Under the pieces are notes generated by a model. The model searched no databases and was not told the origin of the DNA. It saw nothing but the letters and a program-made list of their open reading frames with translations. DNA of 64,000 nucleotides from Clostridia bacterium (lineage in GTDB: Bacteria; Bacillota; Clostridia; UBA1381; UBA9506): contig JAFQBK010000013.1 in assembly GCA_017399695.1 (NCBI GenBank), forward strand, positions 1-64,000, read 5' to 3'. Numbering within the stretch: position 1 is the stretch's first letter; each line of letters opens with the position of its first letter. Made by a program: the position numbers and the translations under genes. This document shows, piece after piece, positions 1,525 through 63,416 of this stretch.

Positions 1525-3591
1525 TTACGGCAACAGTTCATTTTTTGCTGTCTCGCTTCGGTCAGGTGTCATGCCGCCGTAAAAATACTGTTCAAAAATA
1601 TCTCTTGCGATATAAGAAACACCGGAACCGGATGCACCGTGCTCTACGACGATTGCCACAGCAATCTGCGGGTCGTCAAATGGCGCAAAACCGACATAAA
1701 TACCGTTTGCGCTGCCTCGGCTGACCTGCGCTGAACCTGTCTTTCCGCCTGTCTTAATCGGGAATGAAGAAAAAGCACCGCTGGCGGTTCCGCCCACGTC
1801 GGTTACCATGCCCATTCCCTTTAATATCGCATTTAGATTTTCAGGTTTAATTTCTATCTTATGGCGGACTTCCGGCTGCACCTTCGCTATGATTGACTGG
1901 TCGGTGCCGGATTTGACCGCCTTTAATAAATGCGCACGGTAGTTCGTACCGCCGTTAGCTACCGTCGCCACATAATTGGCAAGCTGAATTGGAGTAAACA
2001 GGTTATCTGACTGACCGATTGCCGCCTGCAGAGCGTCACCGGGATACCATTTTCTGCCCGCTTTTTCTCGGTCTGCCGGATTTGCGAGCTGACCTTTGAC
2101 CTCCTCAGAAAGCTCAATTCCCGTATAGTCGCCCAAGCCGAAGTTCTTCGCATAGTGACCCAAACGGTCGATGCCAAGCTGTTTTCCCATATCATAAAAG
2201 AAATAGTTGCAGGAATCCCTTAATGCCTCCGAAACATTGATGACACCATGCGTTCTGCCCGAGGTGCGGAACACGTTACAGGAGAATGTATGGCTCAAAT
2301 AGTGATACTGCCCCTTGGTTTCCATCACCTGCGTCGGAGAAATGATGCCTTCTTCGAGAGCCGCTGTCGCCGTCACGAGCTTAAAGGTTGAGCCGGGCTC
2401 GTAGGTGCCCCGGAGGGCACGGTTGAAGATAGGGTTTCCGTTTGCCTGAAGCAGTTTATTATAGTCCTGATTATAACGAGCAGGGTCATAGGTCGGATAG
2501 CTTGCAATCGCCAGAATTTCTCCGCTGTTGACATCAATCACCACCACGGAGCCGGCATTGGCATCTCCGCCGCCCCTTGCACTTGTTGCATTCGCAGCAA
2601 TGCGGTGAATATTACGTTCTAGTGATTCTTCTGCCGCTTTTTGCAAATCCAAATCAATCGTCAAAAGCACAGAGTTCCCCGGTATGGGGTCTTTAGAATA
2701 GACAATTTCACTTTCGCCCTCTTTGATTTTTCGCTCGATACTATTTGTTCCGTCGATGCCGCGCAAATAGCTCTCAAAGGCTTTTTCTGCGCCCTCTTTT
2801 CCGATGTAATCGTTCATTCCGTAGTCTTGTTCCTTGAGCGTTTCATACTCCGCCTGACTGATGATACCGACACGCCCTAAAATATGCGCCGCGGTTGTCC
2901 CTTGCGTATAGGCGCGAATCGGCTCCTGATACACACTGATACAGCGGTATTTTTCTTCCCGCTGCTCCTTGATTTGCGAGACAGTGGAAATATCTACGTC
3001 ATTAGCAAAGACATACGGGTTATTCGAGGAGAAATTTCGCATCTCCATTTCATAGCGCACGCCGATAATTTTGCGCATTTCTTCTTTTGAAAAGCCTTCT
3101 GCCACCTGATAGCGTTTCTTAAATTTATCTAAAACATCCTGCACGCTTGCCGCCTCCGGCAAGGAGTACATTTTCTTAAATGCCAGTTCTTTTTTCTTTA
3201 TCGCCTCTTGGGTATCTCCGGGGAAGGTAAAGGAAAACGGCTCGGTTTTACTGACTGGGAAGGTATCTTCATAGGAAAGGCCGTTCGCATCAAACAGGCT
3301 TGCGAGATTAAAAACCACCTGATTTAAGGCTTGTCTGTCATCATCAATTTTTGCAATCGCCACGGTCTGACCGACACGATTGGTAATCATCGGTCTGCCA
3401 TAGCGGTCCAGGATTTCTCCACGCGGTGCTTTGACGGGAATATTTCGTGCCAGACGACTGTCTGATATCACCCGATAGTTTTCACCCTCCAAAATTTGCA
3501 GCGAAAAAAGGCGCTGTACGACCAGTAAGGTCAAAAGCGCCAAAAGAACATACAAAATTCGATAGCGATTCCTGAGTTCTCTTTCCTGCAT
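1525..3591 (-). CDS. mrdA: Penicillin-binding protein 2 (elongasome transpeptidase)
   Basis: This is a class B penicillin-binding protein, the DD-transpeptidase that crosslinks peptidoglycan during rod elongation. The 688-residue product has a short cytosolic tail and one membrane segment at about residues 11-28. A PBP dimer domain follows (APRGEILDRYG). The transpeptidase domain has SxxK in GSTFK, SxN in DSCNYF and KTG in GGKTGSAQVS. The start at 3591 has AAGGAGAG seven bases upstream; a longer reading to 3657 would overlap mreD and lacks such a site. It is part of mreBCD-mrdA-minD, the standard elongasome order. It ends in a low-complexity tail. Confidence 0.95.
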   Translation of the reverse strand: MQERELRNRYRILYVLLALLTLLVVQRLFSLQILEGENYRVISDSRLARNIPVKAPRGEILDRYGRPMITNRVGQTVAIAKIDDDRQALNQVVFNLASLFDANGLSYEDTFPVSKTEPFSFTFPGDTQEAIKKKELAFKKMYSLPEAASVQDVLDKFKKRYQVAEGFSKEEMRKIIGVRYEMEMRNFSSNNPYVFANDVDISTVSQIKEQREEKYRCISVYQEPIRAYTQGTTAAHILGRVGIISQAEYETLKEQDYGMNDYIGKEGAEKAFESYLRGIDGTNSIERKIKEGESEIVYSKDPIPGNSVLLTIDLDLQKAAEESLERNIHRIAANATSARGGGDANAGSVVVIDVNSGEILAIASYPTYDPARYNQDYNKLLQANGNPIFNRALRGTYEPGSTFKLVTATAALEEGIISPTQVMETKGQYHYLSHTFSCNVFRTSGRTHGVINVSEALRDSCNYFFYDMGKQLGIDRLGHYAKNFGLGDYTGIELSEEVKGQLANPADREKAGRKWYPGDALQAAIGQSDNLFTPIQLANYVATVANGGTNYRAHLLKAVKSGTDQSIIAKVQPEVRHKIEIKPENLNAILKGMGMVTDVGGTASGAFSSFPIKTGGKTGSAQVSRGSANGIYVGFAPFDDPQIAVAIVVEHGASGSGVSYIARDIFEQYFYGGMTPDRSETAKNELLP

Positions 3592-14419: not shown

Positions 14420-15500
14420 CGTTTGTTTCCTCCTTTTGTCTTCGTTCTACATCGCCACGACCGACAAAAACCTCATAGCCAATCGCTCTCATCTGCTCTC
14501 GCAGCAGTTCGATTTGCTGTGCCGATTCTGCGTCTGTATTAATTTTATTTTGATAAAGTTCATATTTTTTTCGTACCGATAGCGGGGATAAGTTTGGCAT
14601 CACCACATTTGCCCCTGCTAAAATTCCACGCACCCGTCCGTCTCCGGCAACCGTTCCGAGTGCCGTTGTTGCAGGAAGTAAGATGTGCGGATGCATGAGC
14701 CGAATCACCGAAAGTAAATAGCAGGTCAGTCCCGCATCGCCCGAGGGTTCGTTTGCAAACGGTGTCTTCGGGTGCGTAATGAACGGACCGATGCCGCACA
14801 TATCGGGCGAAAATTCCTCAACAAATTTTAAGTCTTTGGCAAGATGCGCCGCCGTCTGATAGGGAGAGCCCACCATAAAACCGCAACCGACTTGGTAGCC
14901 AAGCTCCTTTAAGTCGGATAAGCACCGCATCCGGCGGTCAAAAGCCATTGCTTTTGGATGTAATTTCTCATAATGCTCTTTCGTCGCCGTTTCGTGGCGC
15001 AGAAGATATCGGTCTGCACCTGCTTCTTTGAGCCTTTGATAACTTTCCTTTGAGCGTTCACCCAGAGAAAGCGTCACCGCGCAATCGGGATGCTCCAACT
15101 TAATCGCCGAGATAATGTCACGCAGGACATCATCTGAAAACGCCGCATCCTCACCGCCCTGCATCACAAAGGTACGAAAGCCGAGCCTATAGCCCTCCCG
15201 ACAGCAAGAAAGAATCTCTTCCTTGGTCAGTCGATATCGGTTGACCTCGCTATTTGAACAGCGGATGCCGCAATACAGACAGTCATTTTTGCAAATATTA
15301 CTGATTTCAATCAGCCCGCGCACATAAACGCGGTTTCCATACACCGCACGCCTTGCTGCAACGGCTTTTTCCGCCAAAAGCGCTGCCGCCTCTTCCGTGC
15401 GGTTTTCAATCAAATACTGATACTCCGCTTCCGAAAGATGACGCTCATTCGCAAGCCTTTCAATCAGTTCTCTTAATTTTTTATCCACCGCTGACCACAT
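14406..15500 (-). CDS. hydE: [FeFe]-hydrogenase maturation radical SAM protein HydE
   Basis: HydE acts after HydG in making the azadithiolate bridge of the H-cluster. The radical SAM motif is in ICKNDCLYCGIR, followed by a GGED segment and a barrel typical of the BioB/HydE family. Size (364 residues) is normal. The ATG at 15500 lacks a clear ribosome binding site and overlaps the end of the upstream small gene, so coupled re-initiation is likely; GTG at 15491 is an alternative start. Confidence 0.95.
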   Translation of the reverse strand: MWSAVDKKLRELIERLANERHLSEAEYQYLIENRTEEAAALLAEKAVAARRAVYGNRVYVRGLIEISNICKNDCLYCGIRCSNSEVNRYRLTKEEILSCCREGYRLGFRTFVMQGGEDAAFSDDVLRDIISAIKLEHPDCAVTLSLGERSKESYQRLKEAGADRYLLRHETATKEHYEKLHPKAMAFDRRMRCLSDLKELGYQVGCGFMVGSPYQTAAHLAKDLKFVEEFSPDMCGIGPFITHPKTPFANEPSGDAGLTCYLLSVIRLMHPHILLPATTALGTVAGDGRVRGILAGANVVMPNLSPLSVRKKYELYQNKINTDAESAQQIELLREQMRAIGYEVFVGRGDVERRQKEETNDGNL

Positions 15501-54068: not shown

Positions 54069-54137
54069 CCTTTGGGTGCGGGAAAATGTGCAGAACGCAT
54101 AAAGCATAAAAACAAGAAGATTTAAGAACAGCAAAAA

Positions 54138-54179
54138 ATAACAGGCAGGAAAATGCTTTTGCATTTTCCTGCCTGTTTT
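54138..54179. terminator. Bidirectional terminator between spoVT and the HD gene
   Basis: A 17-bp perfect stem (AACAGGCAGGAAAATGC) with a TTTT loop, with A-run and T-run flanks, between two convergent genes. Confidence 0.88.
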
Positions 54180-54185
54180 ATGATA

Positions 54186-54851
54186 CTACATCAATTTCGT
54201 CCCGTTAATTTCCAAAGCAAAGCGCATTTTTAAGAACTCTGCCGCCTTACGGCACATCAGCATCCGTTCTAAAAAGATTTCGAAATATTCAGAGATTGTA
54301 CTGTGCTCCGTATCAACACGAAGACAAAGCTTGATTTCGCCGTTTTCCTTATCACAAATCACCTGTGACTCTGTCGCCGAGTAATTCACACGGTCGTGAA
54401 TATCAAAGCTTGCCACATCGCGGCTTCTGACCCGGGAGCGTCTGACATCGGATTTGTCTGCTAAAATGAGCGCCGCCGAAACAGGGCTGACGGGTGTTCC
54501 TGTTTTCTCATCGTGATTGCCGATGGCGGAGACCACGGTTGCAATTTCCTCTGCCTCCATCTCCATCGATGAAAGCAGGGTAAAGGCAATAATCGCGCCG
54601 TTATGTGCGTGGTCCTCGCGATTAACCACGTTTCCGATATCGTGCATAAAGCCCGCAATTTTTGCAAGCTCCTGCTCACGCTCCGAAAAACCCAGTTCCT
54701 CTAAAATCTTCGCCGCATTTTTTGCGCAAAGCTCTGAATGGATAAACGAATGCTCCGTAAAGCCTTTGGCACAAAGAACGTCGTTTCCACGCTCCATATA
54801 CACACGGATATCCTTATTTTCACGCACATCCGAAAGCATAATTTTCTTCAT
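54186..54851 (-). CDS. HD-domain phosphohydrolase
   Basis: A 221-residue metal-dependent HD hydrolase. Ligands are seen in FIHSELCAKNAAKI, GFMHDIGN (the HD pair), EDHAHNGAIIAF and IGNHDEKTG. A C-terminal stretch of about 70 residues is beta-rich. The family acts on nucleotides or phospho-signals; the substrate is unknown. It follows the cysteine desulfurase by 17 bases and is probably in the same transcript as folT. Confidence 0.8.
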   Translation of the reverse strand: MKKIMLSDVRENKDIRVYMERGNDVLCAKGFTEHSFIHSELCAKNAAKILEELGFSEREQELAKIAGFMHDIGNVVNREDHAHNGAIIAFTLLSSMEMEAEEIATVVSAIGNHDEKTGTPVSPVSAALILADKSDVRRSRVRSRDVASFDIHDRVNYSATESQVICDKENGEIKLCLRVDTEHSTISEYFEIFLERMLMCRKAAEFLKMRFALEINGTKLM

Positions 54852-56032: not shown

Positions 56033-56548
56033 TCATTCTATTCTCAAATTTTTCTCAATATACGTGCCGATATATTTCCAGAGCAGATAAATGACGCCCG
56101 GCTGAACAATCACCATGGTAAGTGCCTGTACTGCACGCTGGGTAAGCGCCGCAACAAACGGCTGCCCCATCATCGTAAACCAAAGCGTATTTAAGAAGAT
56201 CCCAATCAGCACCTGCGACAGGAGCACGCACAGGAAAATGCGAAGAATCCCCTTATTGCGTCGATATAAAAAGAGACTGAAGCATATTGCGTAAAGCGCC
56301 GCTGAAATGCCAAGCCCCGGGAAATACACTCCCATCGGCTTTAAGACAAATCCTAAAAAGTCACCAAAAAAAGCGCTGACCGCTGCATACATTGGACCCA
56401 AAGTCATTGCACACATAGAGGTTGGTACAAAGGTCAGACTGATTTGCAGCAAAGCTGTTTTTGCCGATAATACCCGCGCCAAAACATCCAGTGCTAAAAA
56501 CATGGCGGCAAGAGCAACTTTTTTGGTAGTTAAAAACGACTTTTGCAT
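56033..56548 (-). CDS. folT: Folate ECF transporter S component FolT
   Basis: FolT is the substrate-binding subunit for folate uptake by the ECF transporter. The 171-residue, six-span protein has SFLTTKKVALAAMFLALDVLARVLS, the loop FVPTSMCAMTLGPMYAAVSAFFGDFLGFVL, and ends with QPGVIYLLWKYI. The tetrahydrofolate riboswitch directly upstream is strong independent support. The ATG at 56548 follows AAGGAAGGG. Energising subunits EcfA/EcfT must be encoded elsewhere. Confidence 0.93.
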   Translation of the reverse strand: MQKSFLTTKKVALAAMFLALDVLARVLSAKTALLQISLTFVPTSMCAMTLGPMYAAVSAFFGDFLGFVLKPMGVYFPGLGISAALYAICFSLFLYRRNKGILRIFLCVLLSQVLIGIFLNTLWFTMMGQPFVAALTQRAVQALTMVIVQPGVIYLLWKYIGTYIEKNLRIE

Positions 56549-56616
56549 AAAAAAACACACCCTTCCTTAAAATTTAGCCACAAAAGAGAAGGATATGTAC
56601 CGATTCGCTCTTCGGT

Positions 56617-58982: not shown

Positions 58983-61900
58983 TTAGTCTCTTGCCATTCT
59001 CTTGTAGTTTTCGTAACGCTCCAAGAGGTCTTTTTCAGCCTTATCAAAGAGCTGATCAGCAATCGTCGGGAAGGAACGAGCAAGCAAGAGGTAACGGTTT
59101 TCACCCTGCATAAACTCACGAACAGAACCGGTCGGCTCCTTAGAATCCAGAATGAACGGATTCTTGCCTTCGTCCTTGAGCTGCGGATCATATCTCCACA
59201 GATGCCAGTAACCAGCCTCAACAGCCTTCTTCTCTTCCTTAATGGTGTTAGCCATACCAACCTTGATACCATGGTTGATACACGGAGCATAAGCGATAAT
59301 GAGGGACGGGCCCGGATATGCTTCTGCTTCTTTGATTGCCTTGATTGCCTGTGCCATGTTAGCACCCAGAGCAATCTGAGCAACATATACATAACCATAG
59401 GTGGTAGCAATCATACCAAGGTCTTTCTTCTTCGTTCTCTTACCGGAAGCTGCGAATTTAGCAACTGCAGCCGTCGGGGTAGATTTCGAAGACTGACCGC
59501 CGGTGTTGGAGTAAACTTCGGTATCAACAACGAAGATGTTGATGTCTTCGCCGGATGCAATTACGTGGTCTAAACCGCCGTAACCGATATCGTATGCCCA
59601 ACCGTCACCACCGAACGCCCAGTTGGAACGTTTGATGAGGTAATCCTGACGCTCATTGATTTCTTTCATAGCGGCAGAAGAAAGGTCAGCAGTCTTAAGA
59701 AGCTCAGCAATGTCAGCAGCTGCCTTCTTGGAAGCTTCTGCATCATCCATGCCTGCGATCCAAGCTTTGAATGCATCAGCAATTTTAGCGTCCACACCAG
59801 CTTCGATTGCTTCTTCCATACGAGCCTTTAAGGTATTTCTTACTTTCTTAACAGCAAGCACCATACCGAGACCGAACTCTGCGTTATCTTCAAAGAGGGA
59901 GTTAGCCCAAGCCGGACCCTTGCCTTCCTTGTTCTTGCAGTACGGCATACTCGGTGCACTACCGCCCCAGATGGAGGTACAACCGGTAGCGTTCGCTACG
60001 AGCATACGGTCACCAAAGAGCTGAGTGATGAGCTTGATATACGGAGTTTCTCCACAACCTGCGCAAGCGCCGGAGAACTCGAGGAGCGGCTGTGCGAACT
60101 GGGAGCCCTTGATGGAAGTCTTGTCCACGAGGTTATCACGGATGTCAAGACCCATGCTGTAATCCCAATTTGCTGCCTCTTTTTCAACCATTTCGTCAAC
60201 CGGCTTCATAACGAGAGCCTTTTCTTTTGCCGGACAGGTCTCTACGCAGACGCCACAACCTGCACAGTCTCTCGGGCTGACCTGAATGCGGAACTTATAA
60301 CCCTTAAACTGCGGGCCGTTCGCATCTTTTACTGCGTAACCTGCTTTTGCAGCTTCCTCTTCCGTTAACAGGAACGGACGGATGGTAGCATGCGGACATA
60401 CCAAAGAACACTGGTTACACTGGATACAATTTTCCGGAATCCATTCCGGAACCTTAACTGCGATGGTACGTTTTTCATAACGAGCCGTACCCTGCTCAAA
60501 GGTACCGTCTTCGATACCAACGAAGGTGCTGACCGGAAGCTTGTTGCCCTGCTGAGCATTGACCGGATCTGCAATCTTCTTCACGAATTCTGGACGATTT
60601 GCATCGTCAGCTTTTGCTTCATCCTTTGCATCTTTCCAGCTTGCCGGAACATCAATCTTAACCAAAGCGTCGATTGCACCATCTACTGCGTTGCAGTTCA
60701 TGTTAACAATCTCGTCGCCCTTCTTACCGTAGGTTCTCTTAATAGCGTCCTTAATAAGAACAACTGCTTCCTCGAACGGAATAACCTCGGACAGTTTAAA
60801 GAATGCACCCTGGGTAACCATGTTGATACGGTTAGAGCCAAGACCAACTTTTACTGCAACATCAACTGCATTGATGATATAGAAGTTGATTTCGTTCTCT
60901 GCGAGGTATCTCTTTACGTTTGCCGGCAATTTTTCTTCCAGCTCATCCGGAGACCATACGCAGTTCAGAAGGAAAGTACCGCCTTTTTTCAGACCTTCCA
61001 ATACATCGTACTGATAGATGTAGGACGGCTTGTGGCAAGCAATATAGTCAGCCTCATCCAAAAGATAAGTAGACTTAATCGGTTTCTTACCGAAACGCAA
61101 GTGAGACATCGTTACGCCACCGGATTTTTTGGAGTCGTAATCAAAGTATGCCTGTGCGTAAAGATCAGTGTTGTCACCGATGATTTTGATAGCATCTTTG
61201 TTTGCACCAACGGTACCGTCAGAGCCAAAGCCCCAGAACTTACAACGAGTGGTGCCTTCCGGAGCAGCATTGATTTTCTCACCCAGCGGCAGGGAAAGGT
61301 TCGTAACATCGTCTACGATACCGATCGTAAAGCCGTTTTTCGGGGTATCTGCTTCGAGGTTTTTGTAAACTGCTGCGATCTGCGTCGGGGTGGTGTCCTT
61401 AGAACCCAGACCATAGCGTCCGCCAACGATAACCGGAGCATCTGCTTTTCCGTAGAACAGGTTGCAGATGTCAAGATACAGCGGTTCGCCCAAAGAGCCC
61501 GGCTCCTTGGTTCTGTCGAGTACTGCGATTTTCTTCACAGTCTTCGGCAGTACATCAAAGAAGTATTTAGAAGAGAACGGACGGTACAGGTGAACCTTAA
61601 TCACACCGACCTTCTCGCCTTTTGCGTTGAGGTAATCAACAGTTTCTTCAATTGCTTCGCAAGCGGAGCCCATTGCAACGATGACTCTCTCAGCGTCCGG
61701 AGCACCATAGTAGTTGAACGGCTTGTACTCACGGCCGGTAATCTTGGAGATTTCTTTCATATAATCTGCCACGATATCCGGAATTGCTTCATAGTATTTA
61801 TTTGCAGCTTCTCTGCCCTGGAAATAGATATCCGGGTTCTGAGCAGTACCGCGAAGTACCGGATGCTCAGGATTTAAAGCTCTGTCCTTAAATTCTTTGA

Positions 61901-62498
61901 TTGCATCATAGTCAACCAATTTTGCCAGATCGTCGTAGTCCATAACCTCAACCTTCTGAATTTCGTGAGAGGTACGGAAACCGTCGAAGAAGTGAAGGAA
62001 CGGAACACGGCCCTTAATTGCAGCTAAGTGTGCAATACCACCCAAGTCCATTGTTTCCTGAACACTACCGGAAGCAAGCATTGCAAAACCGGTCTGACGG
62101 CAAGCCATAACGTCCTGATGGTCACCGAAAATGGAGAGTGCGTGTGCAGCGATTGCACGAGCACTTACATGGAATACTGCCGGAAGCAGCTCACCAGCCA
62201 TTTTATACATATTCGGGATCATCAGAAGAAGACCCTGAGATGCGGTAAAGGTTGTTGTGAGTGCACCAGCCTGCAAGGAGCCGTGAACAGCACCTGCAGC
62301 ACCTGCCTCGGACTGCATTTCGCAGACATCAACAGTCTGACCAAAAATGTTTTTCTGGCCCTTAGCACTCCACTCATCTACATACTCAGCCATCGTAGAT
62401 GAAGGAGTAATCGGATAGATTGATGCAACTTCCGTAAACGCATAGGCGTTATGGGCAGCGGCATAGTTACCATCCATGGTTTTCATTTTTTTTGCCAT
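58983..62498 (-). CDS. nifJ: Pyruvate:ferredoxin (flavodoxin) oxidoreductase
   Basis: PFOR oxidises pyruvate to acetyl-CoA and CO2 and reduces ferredoxin, feeding electrons to hydrogenase. The 1171-residue single chain holds all domains. Domain I starts with TMDGNYAAAHNAYAFTEV and YPITPSS. Later come CIQCNQCSLVCPHA and CAGCGVCVETCPAKEKA (two 4Fe-4S clusters), CAGCGETPYIKL (proximal cluster) and the thiamine diphosphate motif GDGWAYDIGYGG...NTGGQSS. The ATG at 62498 follows GAGGAGGA. It is monocistronic. With hydEFG in the window it points to H2-evolving fermentation. Confidence 0.98.
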   Translation of the reverse strand: MAKKMKTMDGNYAAAHNAYAFTEVASIYPITPSSTMAEYVDEWSAKGQKNIFGQTVDVCEMQSEAGAAGAVHGSLQAGALTTTFTASQGLLLMIPNMYKMAGELLPAVFHVSARAIAAHALSIFGDHQDVMACRQTGFAMLASGSVQETMDLGGIAHLAAIKGRVPFLHFFDGFRTSHEIQKVEVMDYDDLAKLVDYDAIKEFKDRALNPEHPVLRGTAQNPDIYFQGREAANKYYEAIPDIVADYMKEISKITGREYKPFNYYGAPDAERVIVAMGSACEAIEETVDYLNAKGEKVGVIKVHLYRPFSSKYFFDVLPKTVKKIAVLDRTKEPGSLGEPLYLDICNLFYGKADAPVIVGGRYGLGSKDTTPTQIAAVYKNLEADTPKNGFTIGIVDDVTNLSLPLGEKINAAPEGTTRCKFWGFGSDGTVGANKDAIKIIGDNTDLYAQAYFDYDSKKSGGVTMSHLRFGKKPIKSTYLLDEADYIACHKPSYIYQYDVLEGLKKGGTFLLNCVWSPDELEEKLPANVKRYLAENEINFYIINAVDVAVKVGLGSNRINMVTQGAFFKLSEVIPFEEAVVLIKDAIKRTYGKKGDEIVNMNCNAVDGAIDALVKIDVPASWKDAKDEAKADDANRPEFVKKIADPVNAQQGNKLPVSTFVGIEDGTFEQGTARYEKRTIAVKVPEWIPENCIQCNQCSLVCPHATIRPFLLTEEEAAKAGYAVKDANGPQFKGYKFRIQVSPRDCAGCGVCVETCPAKEKALVMKPVDEMVEKEAANWDYSMGLDIRDNLVDKTSIKGSQFAQPLLEFSGACAGCGETPYIKLITQLFGDRMLVANATGCTSIWGGSAPSMPYCKNKEGKGPAWANSLFEDNAEFGLGMVLAVKKVRNTLKARMEEAIEAGVDAKIADAFKAWIAGMDDAEASKKAAADIAELLKTADLSSAAMKEINERQDYLIKRSNWAFGGDGWAYDIGYGGLDHVIASGEDINIFVVDTEVYSNTGGQSSKSTPTAAVAKFAASGKRTKKKDLGMIATTYGYVYVAQIALGANMAQAIKAIKEAEAYPGPSLIIAYAPCINHGIKVGMANTIKEEKKAVEAGYWHLWRYDPQLKDEGKNPFILDSKEPTGSVREFMQGENRYLLLARSFPTIADQLFDKAEKDLLERYENYKRMARD

Positions 62499-62594: not shown

Positions 62595-62623
62595 ATTGTA
62601 CCATACTTCTTATCAAATTTCAA
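62595..62623 (-). promoter_or_regulatory. Promoter of nifJ
   Basis: Minus strand TTGAAA (62618-62623), 17 bases, TACAAT (62595-62600), giving a leader of about 90 bases. Confidence 0.7.
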
Positions 62624-62677: not shown

Positions 62678-62774
62678 AAAAAACAATACCGACATTGCTT
62701 TCGCAACGCCGGCACGGTTTATGGTACTATATGAAAGGGGGGGGTAGGTAAACTTATGAGTATATATCTTCTCG
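62678..62774 (-). ncRNA. Candidate C-rich small RNA upstream of nifJ
   Basis: A stand-alone transcription unit is visible on the minus strand. A promoter lies just upstream, and transcription would start near 62774. A mostly single-stranded stretch contains CTACCCCCCCCTTTC (C8 at 62737-62744). A 10-bp hairpin with a GAAA loop (62689-62712; CCGGCGTTGC / GCAATGTCGG) follows, with a U-rich tail. Two pairs are G-U on the minus strand but A-C on the plus strand, so the RNA is made from the minus strand. The layout resembles C-rich Firmicutes regulators such as RsaE/RoxS; homology is not claimed. Confidence 0.6.
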
Positions 62775-62780
62775 GTACTT

Positions 62781-62809
62781 ATTGTACTACAAAAAAAGGC
62801 GTTTGTAAA
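62781..62809 (-). promoter_or_regulatory. Promoter of the candidate small RNA
   Basis: Minus strand TTTACA (62804-62809), 17 bases, TACAAT (62781-62786), about 100 bases before the GAAA-capped terminator. Confidence 0.65.
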
Positions 62810-62912: not shown

Positions 62913-63416
62913 TCATCGGCACTCTAACACCGGACGCAGCACTCTCGCCCACTCCTCGGTCAGGCGCTCCAGGGTAAATTGAGCATTTGCGGGACTGGTG
63001 GACGGAAGGCAGATGGTCGGAACTTCATAATGCCTCGGCGCAAATTTTTGATAAATTTCCTCCGACTTTTTTCCATTAAAGCACAAAAGCCGGATATCCG
63101 CCTCGTGAAAAATCGGCGATAAATCGTTGGCAATCGGATGGGTAATCGAGCTATCCGCCGAGCCAACGATCTCACAGGATGCCAATGAATCCCAAAGCGC
63201 GATATGGTGCGAAAGCAAAAGCGTCTTTTTTTCCTCAATGCTCGTCGGCACGTTTTCCTTTAAGATTGCCGCAAGCACCCGCCAAAATCGATTCTGCGGA
63301 TGCCCGTAAAAAAAGTTTTGCTCTCTCGACTTCACCGACGGAAAGGAACCTAAAATAAGCACCCTGCTTTCCTTATTATATAAAGGTCCAAACGGATGTG
63401 AAATCTGCGGCATCAA
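62913..63416 (-). CDS. DNA-deoxyinosine (hypoxanthine) glycosylase, uracil-DNA glycosylase superfamily
   Basis: A 167-residue base-excision repair glycosylase. The first motif region is RVLILGSFPSVKSREQNFFYGHPQNRFWRVL, with GSFPS as the water-activating loop. The later LPSTSPANA replaces the usual His-Pro-Ser DNA-binding loop. This combination fits the hypoxanthine-DNA glycosylase family (Mug/UDG-like). It removes deaminated bases, probably hypoxanthine. It follows leuS on the same strand after a terminator; ATGs at 63416 and 63413 are both possible. Confidence 0.85.
   Translation of the reverse strand: MMPQISHPFGPLYNKESRVLILGSFPSVKSREQNFFYGHPQNRFWRVLAAILKENVPTSIEEKKTLLLSHHIALWDSLASCEIVGSADSSITHPIANDLSPIFHEADIRLLCFNGKKSEEIYQKFAPRHYEVPTICLPSTSPANAQFTLERLTEEWARVLRPVLECR

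Follow-up and report, generated by a model that had tools for sequence, protein, structure and literature searches.

FsrA of Bacillus subtilis works together with the helper proteins FbpA, FbpB and FbpC. Its C-rich motif binds Shine-Dalgarno sequences (PMC9410917, PMC8216469). Similarly, C-rich single-stranded tracts of RoxS/RsaE bind to ribosome sites, and roxS has a ResD site near -65 (PMC4409812). In IsrR, the C-rich region CRR1 is 4 to 7 C long depending on the species; this RNA is Hfq-independent (PMC9410917). Of the small RNAs in uncultured gut Clostridia, hardly any have been mapped. Here we examined a locus of a Clostridia bacterium within a stretch of 64,000 nucleotides (the window). 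An earlier note on this DNA had proposed an undescribed minus-strand small RNA with a C8 tract, a trans-acting regulator in the style of RsaE/RoxS possibly linked to nifJ and to redox control by Rex.

The unit is located on the minus strand (62679-62809) in the gap between a uracil-DNA-glycosylase-like gene and nifJ (Table 1). The proposed promoter, TTTACA-17-TACAAT, is present. The start of the small RNA was inferred to be 6-7 bases beyond the -10 hexamer and its 5' end is approximate. About 55 bases precede the terminator; they are nearly unstructured, as the note had described them, and include the C8 tract. The terminator hairpin (62720-62681) is followed by T6. Its energy of -22.9 kcal/mol (z = -5.7) was equalled by none of 200 shuffled sequences. 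The transcribed strand had been assigned from G-U pairs, and such pairs in the terminator indeed exist on the minus strand only. When the same stretch was folded by strand, the minus strand gave -23.9 (z = -3.7) and the plus strand -18.4 (z = -0.2); the plus-strand fold is no better than shuffles. A promoter-like site paired with a terminator-like one is in itself not rare; within 2.5 kb six promoter-like sites were found, compared with 4.2 +/- 2.1 in shuffled sequences.

Table 1. Features of the small-RNA locus and its neighbours (window coordinates).
Feature	Position	Strand	Remarks
Promoter of small RNA	62781..62809	(-)	TTTACA, 17-base spacer, TACAAT
Hexamers	TTTACA 62809-62804, TACAAT 62786-62781	(-)	spacer 17
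Predicted small RNA, ~95 nt	62679..62774	(-)	8 genomes in two genera carry it, the window's included
5' mini-hairpin (GAG...CTC)	62758..62773	(-)	stronger in relatives of the same genus
C8 tract, single-stranded	62737..62744	(-)	5 to 8 C in relatives
Invariant segment UUUCAUAUAGUACCAU, 3' of the C-run, mostly unpaired	62721..62736	(-)	identical in 8/8 copies
Intrinsic terminator	62679..62720	(-)	13-bp inner stem, GAAA cap, 4-bp outer stem, U-tail
nifJ (pyruvate:ferredoxin/flavodoxin oxidoreductase)	58983..62498	(-)	downstream neighbour in the window's genus only; named by sequence and by the earlier note's label
Separate nifJ promoter	62595..62623	(-)	TTGAAA-17-TACAAT with TG extension; beyond the terminator, outside the small RNA
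Uracil-DNA-glycosylase-like gene	62913..63416	(-)	upstream neighbour; named by sequence motifs

A search with 171 bases detected the unit in all four genomes of the window's genus, and a family-wide search added four of the ten genomes of a second genus, g6. Conservation in relatives, a check proposed in the earlier note, was observed; eight genomes carry the unit, the window's included. Every copy keeps TTTACAAA, in which the AA after the -35 hexamer is invariant, together with the 17-base spacer and the -10 hexamer; the C-run, the 16 bases after it and the terminator are likewise present throughout. Mean identity of the core was 0.98 within the window's genus (flanks 0.55-0.58), 0.95 within g6 (flanks 0.46-0.55) and still 0.83 between the two genera (flanks 0.48-0.50). 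UUUCAUAUAGUACCAU is 100% identical in both genera. No copy has lost a pair of the terminator stem, and five alternative pair types occur, one of them via a two-sided change; taken alone this is weak structural evidence because shuffled sequences score about equally. The 5' mini-hairpin gains strength in the rest of the window's genus, where genome G003 has C-G in place of a U-A pair, and has no counterpart as such in g6. Because the unit is conserved while its flanks diverge, we consider that the minus strand at 62679-62809 very probably carries a real small-RNA gene.

A covariance model was built from the eight copies. At loose thresholds it yielded no further copy within the family; weak matches there were unrelated terminators or promoter-like strings. 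No further copy was found in the order (95 genomes), and no homologue beyond the family in a class sample of 391 genomes. An exact scan with an 18-base core over about 85,000 species, one genome each, returned the seven relatives and one chance match. This match, in Anaerolineaceae, was rejected: the rest of the small RNA is missing and it scored 11.5 bits. Named records that match the core are assemblies of unclassified Clostridia, Eubacteriales and Oscillospiraceae, from buffalo and goat gut where the title gives a source; the relatives are known from assembled metagenomes. Viral contigs and phage and plasmid records contained no homologue. In Rfam 15 no family reached the gathering score, E <= 10 gave chance matches only, and the core sequence was absent from the papers searched, which agrees with the claim of an undescribed RNA. 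The absence from six g6 members is provisional because the genomes are partly incomplete; four of these six are more than 90% complete. A possible second copy within the window (54135-54210, minus strand, 28.7 bits) was discarded; it is an ordinary terminator that follows an HD-domain-like gene and lacks a C-run. It is preceded by UAGUAUCAUAAAAC, and its superficial likeness to the 3' part of the small RNA is probably due to chance. We regard the small RNA as a new family of a known functional kind with a narrow distribution.

The C-run was predicted to be open in all eight copies, with an unpaired probability of at least 0.97; for UUUCAUAUAGUACCAU the values were 0.71-0.96. Within the 804 kb sampled of the window's genome C8 is the sole run of C or G with seven or more bases. 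Because it is unique in this respect and open in all copies, its length looks selected. Across the copies the run varies from 5 to 8 C. Such changes in length would shift any reading frame; therefore the small RNA is not coding.

Upstream of all four g6 copies we noted a partly palindromic sequence, separated from the -35 hexamer by 23 to 25 bases and hence near -69. It reads TTACAATCGAATGATTGTAA in G017 and occurs at two different loci. The palindrome (stretches L038, L039, L041 and L036, just upstream of the small RNA) has the form TTACAATC-GAAT-GATTGTAA, degenerate in the other copies; the window's genus shows no clear equivalent. This suggests a candidate site for some activator, and in g6 a transcription factor bound there would probably control the small RNA.

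The earlier note had expected the C-run to pair with G-rich ribosome sites. Targets were predicted in about half of the window's genome, available as stretches, using simple gene calls which gave 647 predicted start regions. Of these, 277 contain GGAGG, 18 have G5 or longer in the Shine-Dalgarno window and three have G6. Since GGAGG is common and G5 or G6 is rare, a long C tract would select only a limited number of messages. Candidates thus exist: the ranked duplexes comprised a helix-turn-helix regulator (C11:123911), a MalQ-like gene, rplP, a PutP-like symporter and three Gfo/Idh/MocA-type oxidoreductases, all named by sequence inspection. The last type accounts for three of the 18 G5 sites, with 13 relatives in the sample; the three are at 14896 and 23278 on the minus strand of the window (offsets from the minus-strand 5' end) and on contig C15. 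rplP, the one candidate compared across relatives, was dismissed as a conserved target: its G6 site reads GGGAGG in G003 and differs in G017 and others. Complements of 18-19 bases with 2 to 3 mismatches, in one search with wobble pairs, did not recur in orthologous genes; sites of 8-12 bp would escape such searches. The start region of a cysK-like gene in G002 (L202) had no match in the cysK-like gene found in the window's genome. The eight carriers have 19 G6 ribosome-site matches and five g6 non-carriers have 21, counts that are too few and too confounded to indicate avoidance. In summary, neither G6 sites, duplex ranking, extended complements nor the rplP comparison gave a convincing target in the half of the genome covered.

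Our preferred explanation, which we hold to be reasonably probable, is a free-standing gene for a trans-acting RNA of about 95 nt whose C-run, helped by UUUCAUAUAGUACCAU, blocks G-rich Shine-Dalgarno regions. Its own sigma-A-type promoter would drive transcription of the minus strand as far as the intrinsic terminator. The single-stranded C-run, with the adjoining UUUCAUAUAGUACCAU, would then most likely pair with certain mRNAs at G-rich Shine-Dalgarno regions, and this pairing would block ribosome loading. Because GGAGG interrupts a long pairing with C, the messages favoured by the C-run should be the few whose ribosome sites have four to six consecutive G. The RNA is probably Hfq-independent; Hfq (PF17209) was found in none of 20 family genomes, which are partly incomplete, and positive controls were detected. 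An RsaE/RoxS-like mode is our best guess, since binding to ribosome sites is known for C-rich small RNAs in Bacilli. The conserved unit among diverging flanks, three genomic contexts (see below), the open and unique C-run and the lack of a surviving reading frame argue for this explanation. Against the C-run as an anti-Shine-Dalgarno element speak the missing conserved target, the rarity of six-G Shine-Dalgarno sites, whose small numbers are if anything lower in carriers than in non-carriers, and the invariant segment 3' of the C-run, which exceeds what such an element needs. A more specific version must be regarded as tentative: a lineage-restricted, selective anti-Shine-Dalgarno RNA in Hfq-less Clostridia, in which the long C tract separates G-run from GGAGG sites and UUUCAUAUAGUACCAU contacts a second partner.

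The invariance of UUUCAUAUAGUACCAU could also mean that the trans-acting RNA pairs mainly via this segment and the first terminator bases, with one or a few specific conserved mRNAs or another small RNA as partner and the C-run in the role of helper or chaperone site. All 16 bases are the same in both genera, in contrast to a C-run of 5 to 8, yet the searches for 18-19-base complements revealed no recurrence in orthologues, with the above reservation for shorter sites; we regard this possibility as rather improbable. An RNA which, dispensing with base pairing, sequesters an RNA-binding protein by the C-run and the following segment would likewise be in keeping with the length of the mostly unpaired stretch, its strict conservation and how little change it tolerates. 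However, no protein candidate was identified, and the varying length of the C-run suggests that there is no site of fixed geometry. We regard titration of a protein as unlikely.

The two other alternatives concern nifJ and the opposite strand. In the window's genus the small RNA is always situated upstream of nifJ on the same strand, as would be expected of a cis-acting nifJ leader or attenuator tied to redox via Rex. But the strong terminator and a separate nifJ promoter intervene, and nifJ of the relatives has a similar promoter. About 500 bp separate small RNA and nifJ in G003. In g6 the neighbours are different: in G013 and G017 the small RNA adjoins S-layer-type genes, in G010 and G011 it faces a YigZ-like gene (both named by inspection). 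A scan of the gap upstream of nifJ that allowed up to 3 mismatches detected no Rex-type palindrome. A nifJ leader is very improbable, and the redox link of the earlier note is not supported. The three unrelated chromosomal contexts indicate a free-standing small RNA, presumably trans-acting and not a nifJ leader; the trans-acting part of the note's proposal fits the g6 copies, which are nowhere near nifJ, but a conserved target that would complete the RsaE/RoxS parallel did not emerge. Because the YigZ-like site is not preserved in non-carriers, loss of the small RNA cannot be dated. Finally, the conserved element might be read on the plus strand, with TATGGTACTAT as an extended -10 box and a slippage-type start at the G-run. 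The reverse complement reads TATGGTACTATATGAAAGGGGGGGG and resembles extended -10 boxes elsewhere in the family. Nevertheless, neither a -35 hexamer, which would fall in the variable terminator loop, nor a start codon on the plus strand is conserved, whereas the promoter of the minus strand, the stem with its G-U pairs and the U-tail all are. We give the plus-strand reading hardly any credence.

Two further elements were seen in this neighbourhood. In G003 (stretch L040, about 2600-2900, minus strand) a second promoter-like/terminator-like unit lies between small RNA and nifJ. It consists of GGTATAAT followed by a CAGACTGTCCG hairpin with T7, has no Rfam match and looks like a short RNA or an inserted element. 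In the window a THF riboswitch (Rfam RF01831; 56617-56716, minus strand) precedes a gene (56033-56560) whose membrane protein product resembles a folate-type transporter, an ordinary arrangement.

The small RNA is unusually well supported by sequence alone, with two genera, three loci and a near-invariant core, and it is a testable candidate for Hfq-free recognition of ribosome sites by a C tract. If the anti-Shine-Dalgarno explanation is true, C-rich regulators, a theme of Bacilli, would also be represented in Clostridia by an unrelated RNA family. FsrA shares with it a C-rich tract, here with a presumed Shine-Dalgarno pairing; homology was not detected. IsrR, the iron-sparing small RNA of Staphylococcus, has a similarly variable C-rich region (4 to 7 C there, 5 to 8 here), is likewise conserved in a narrow taxon and is Hfq-independent, and no Hfq was found here; unlike IsrR, the present RNA is without a three-hairpin architecture, and again no homology was detected. 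It most resembles RsaE/RoxS of Staphylococcus and Bacillus, as a Firmicute RNA of about 100 nt with unpaired C, its own promoter and an intrinsic terminator, and the putative regulator palindrome near -69, limited to g6, is reminiscent of the ResD site near -65 of roxS. In contrast to RsaE/RoxS, which have several short C-rich regions, it has one long C tract, matches no Rfam family and belongs to a lineage of uncultured Clostridia.
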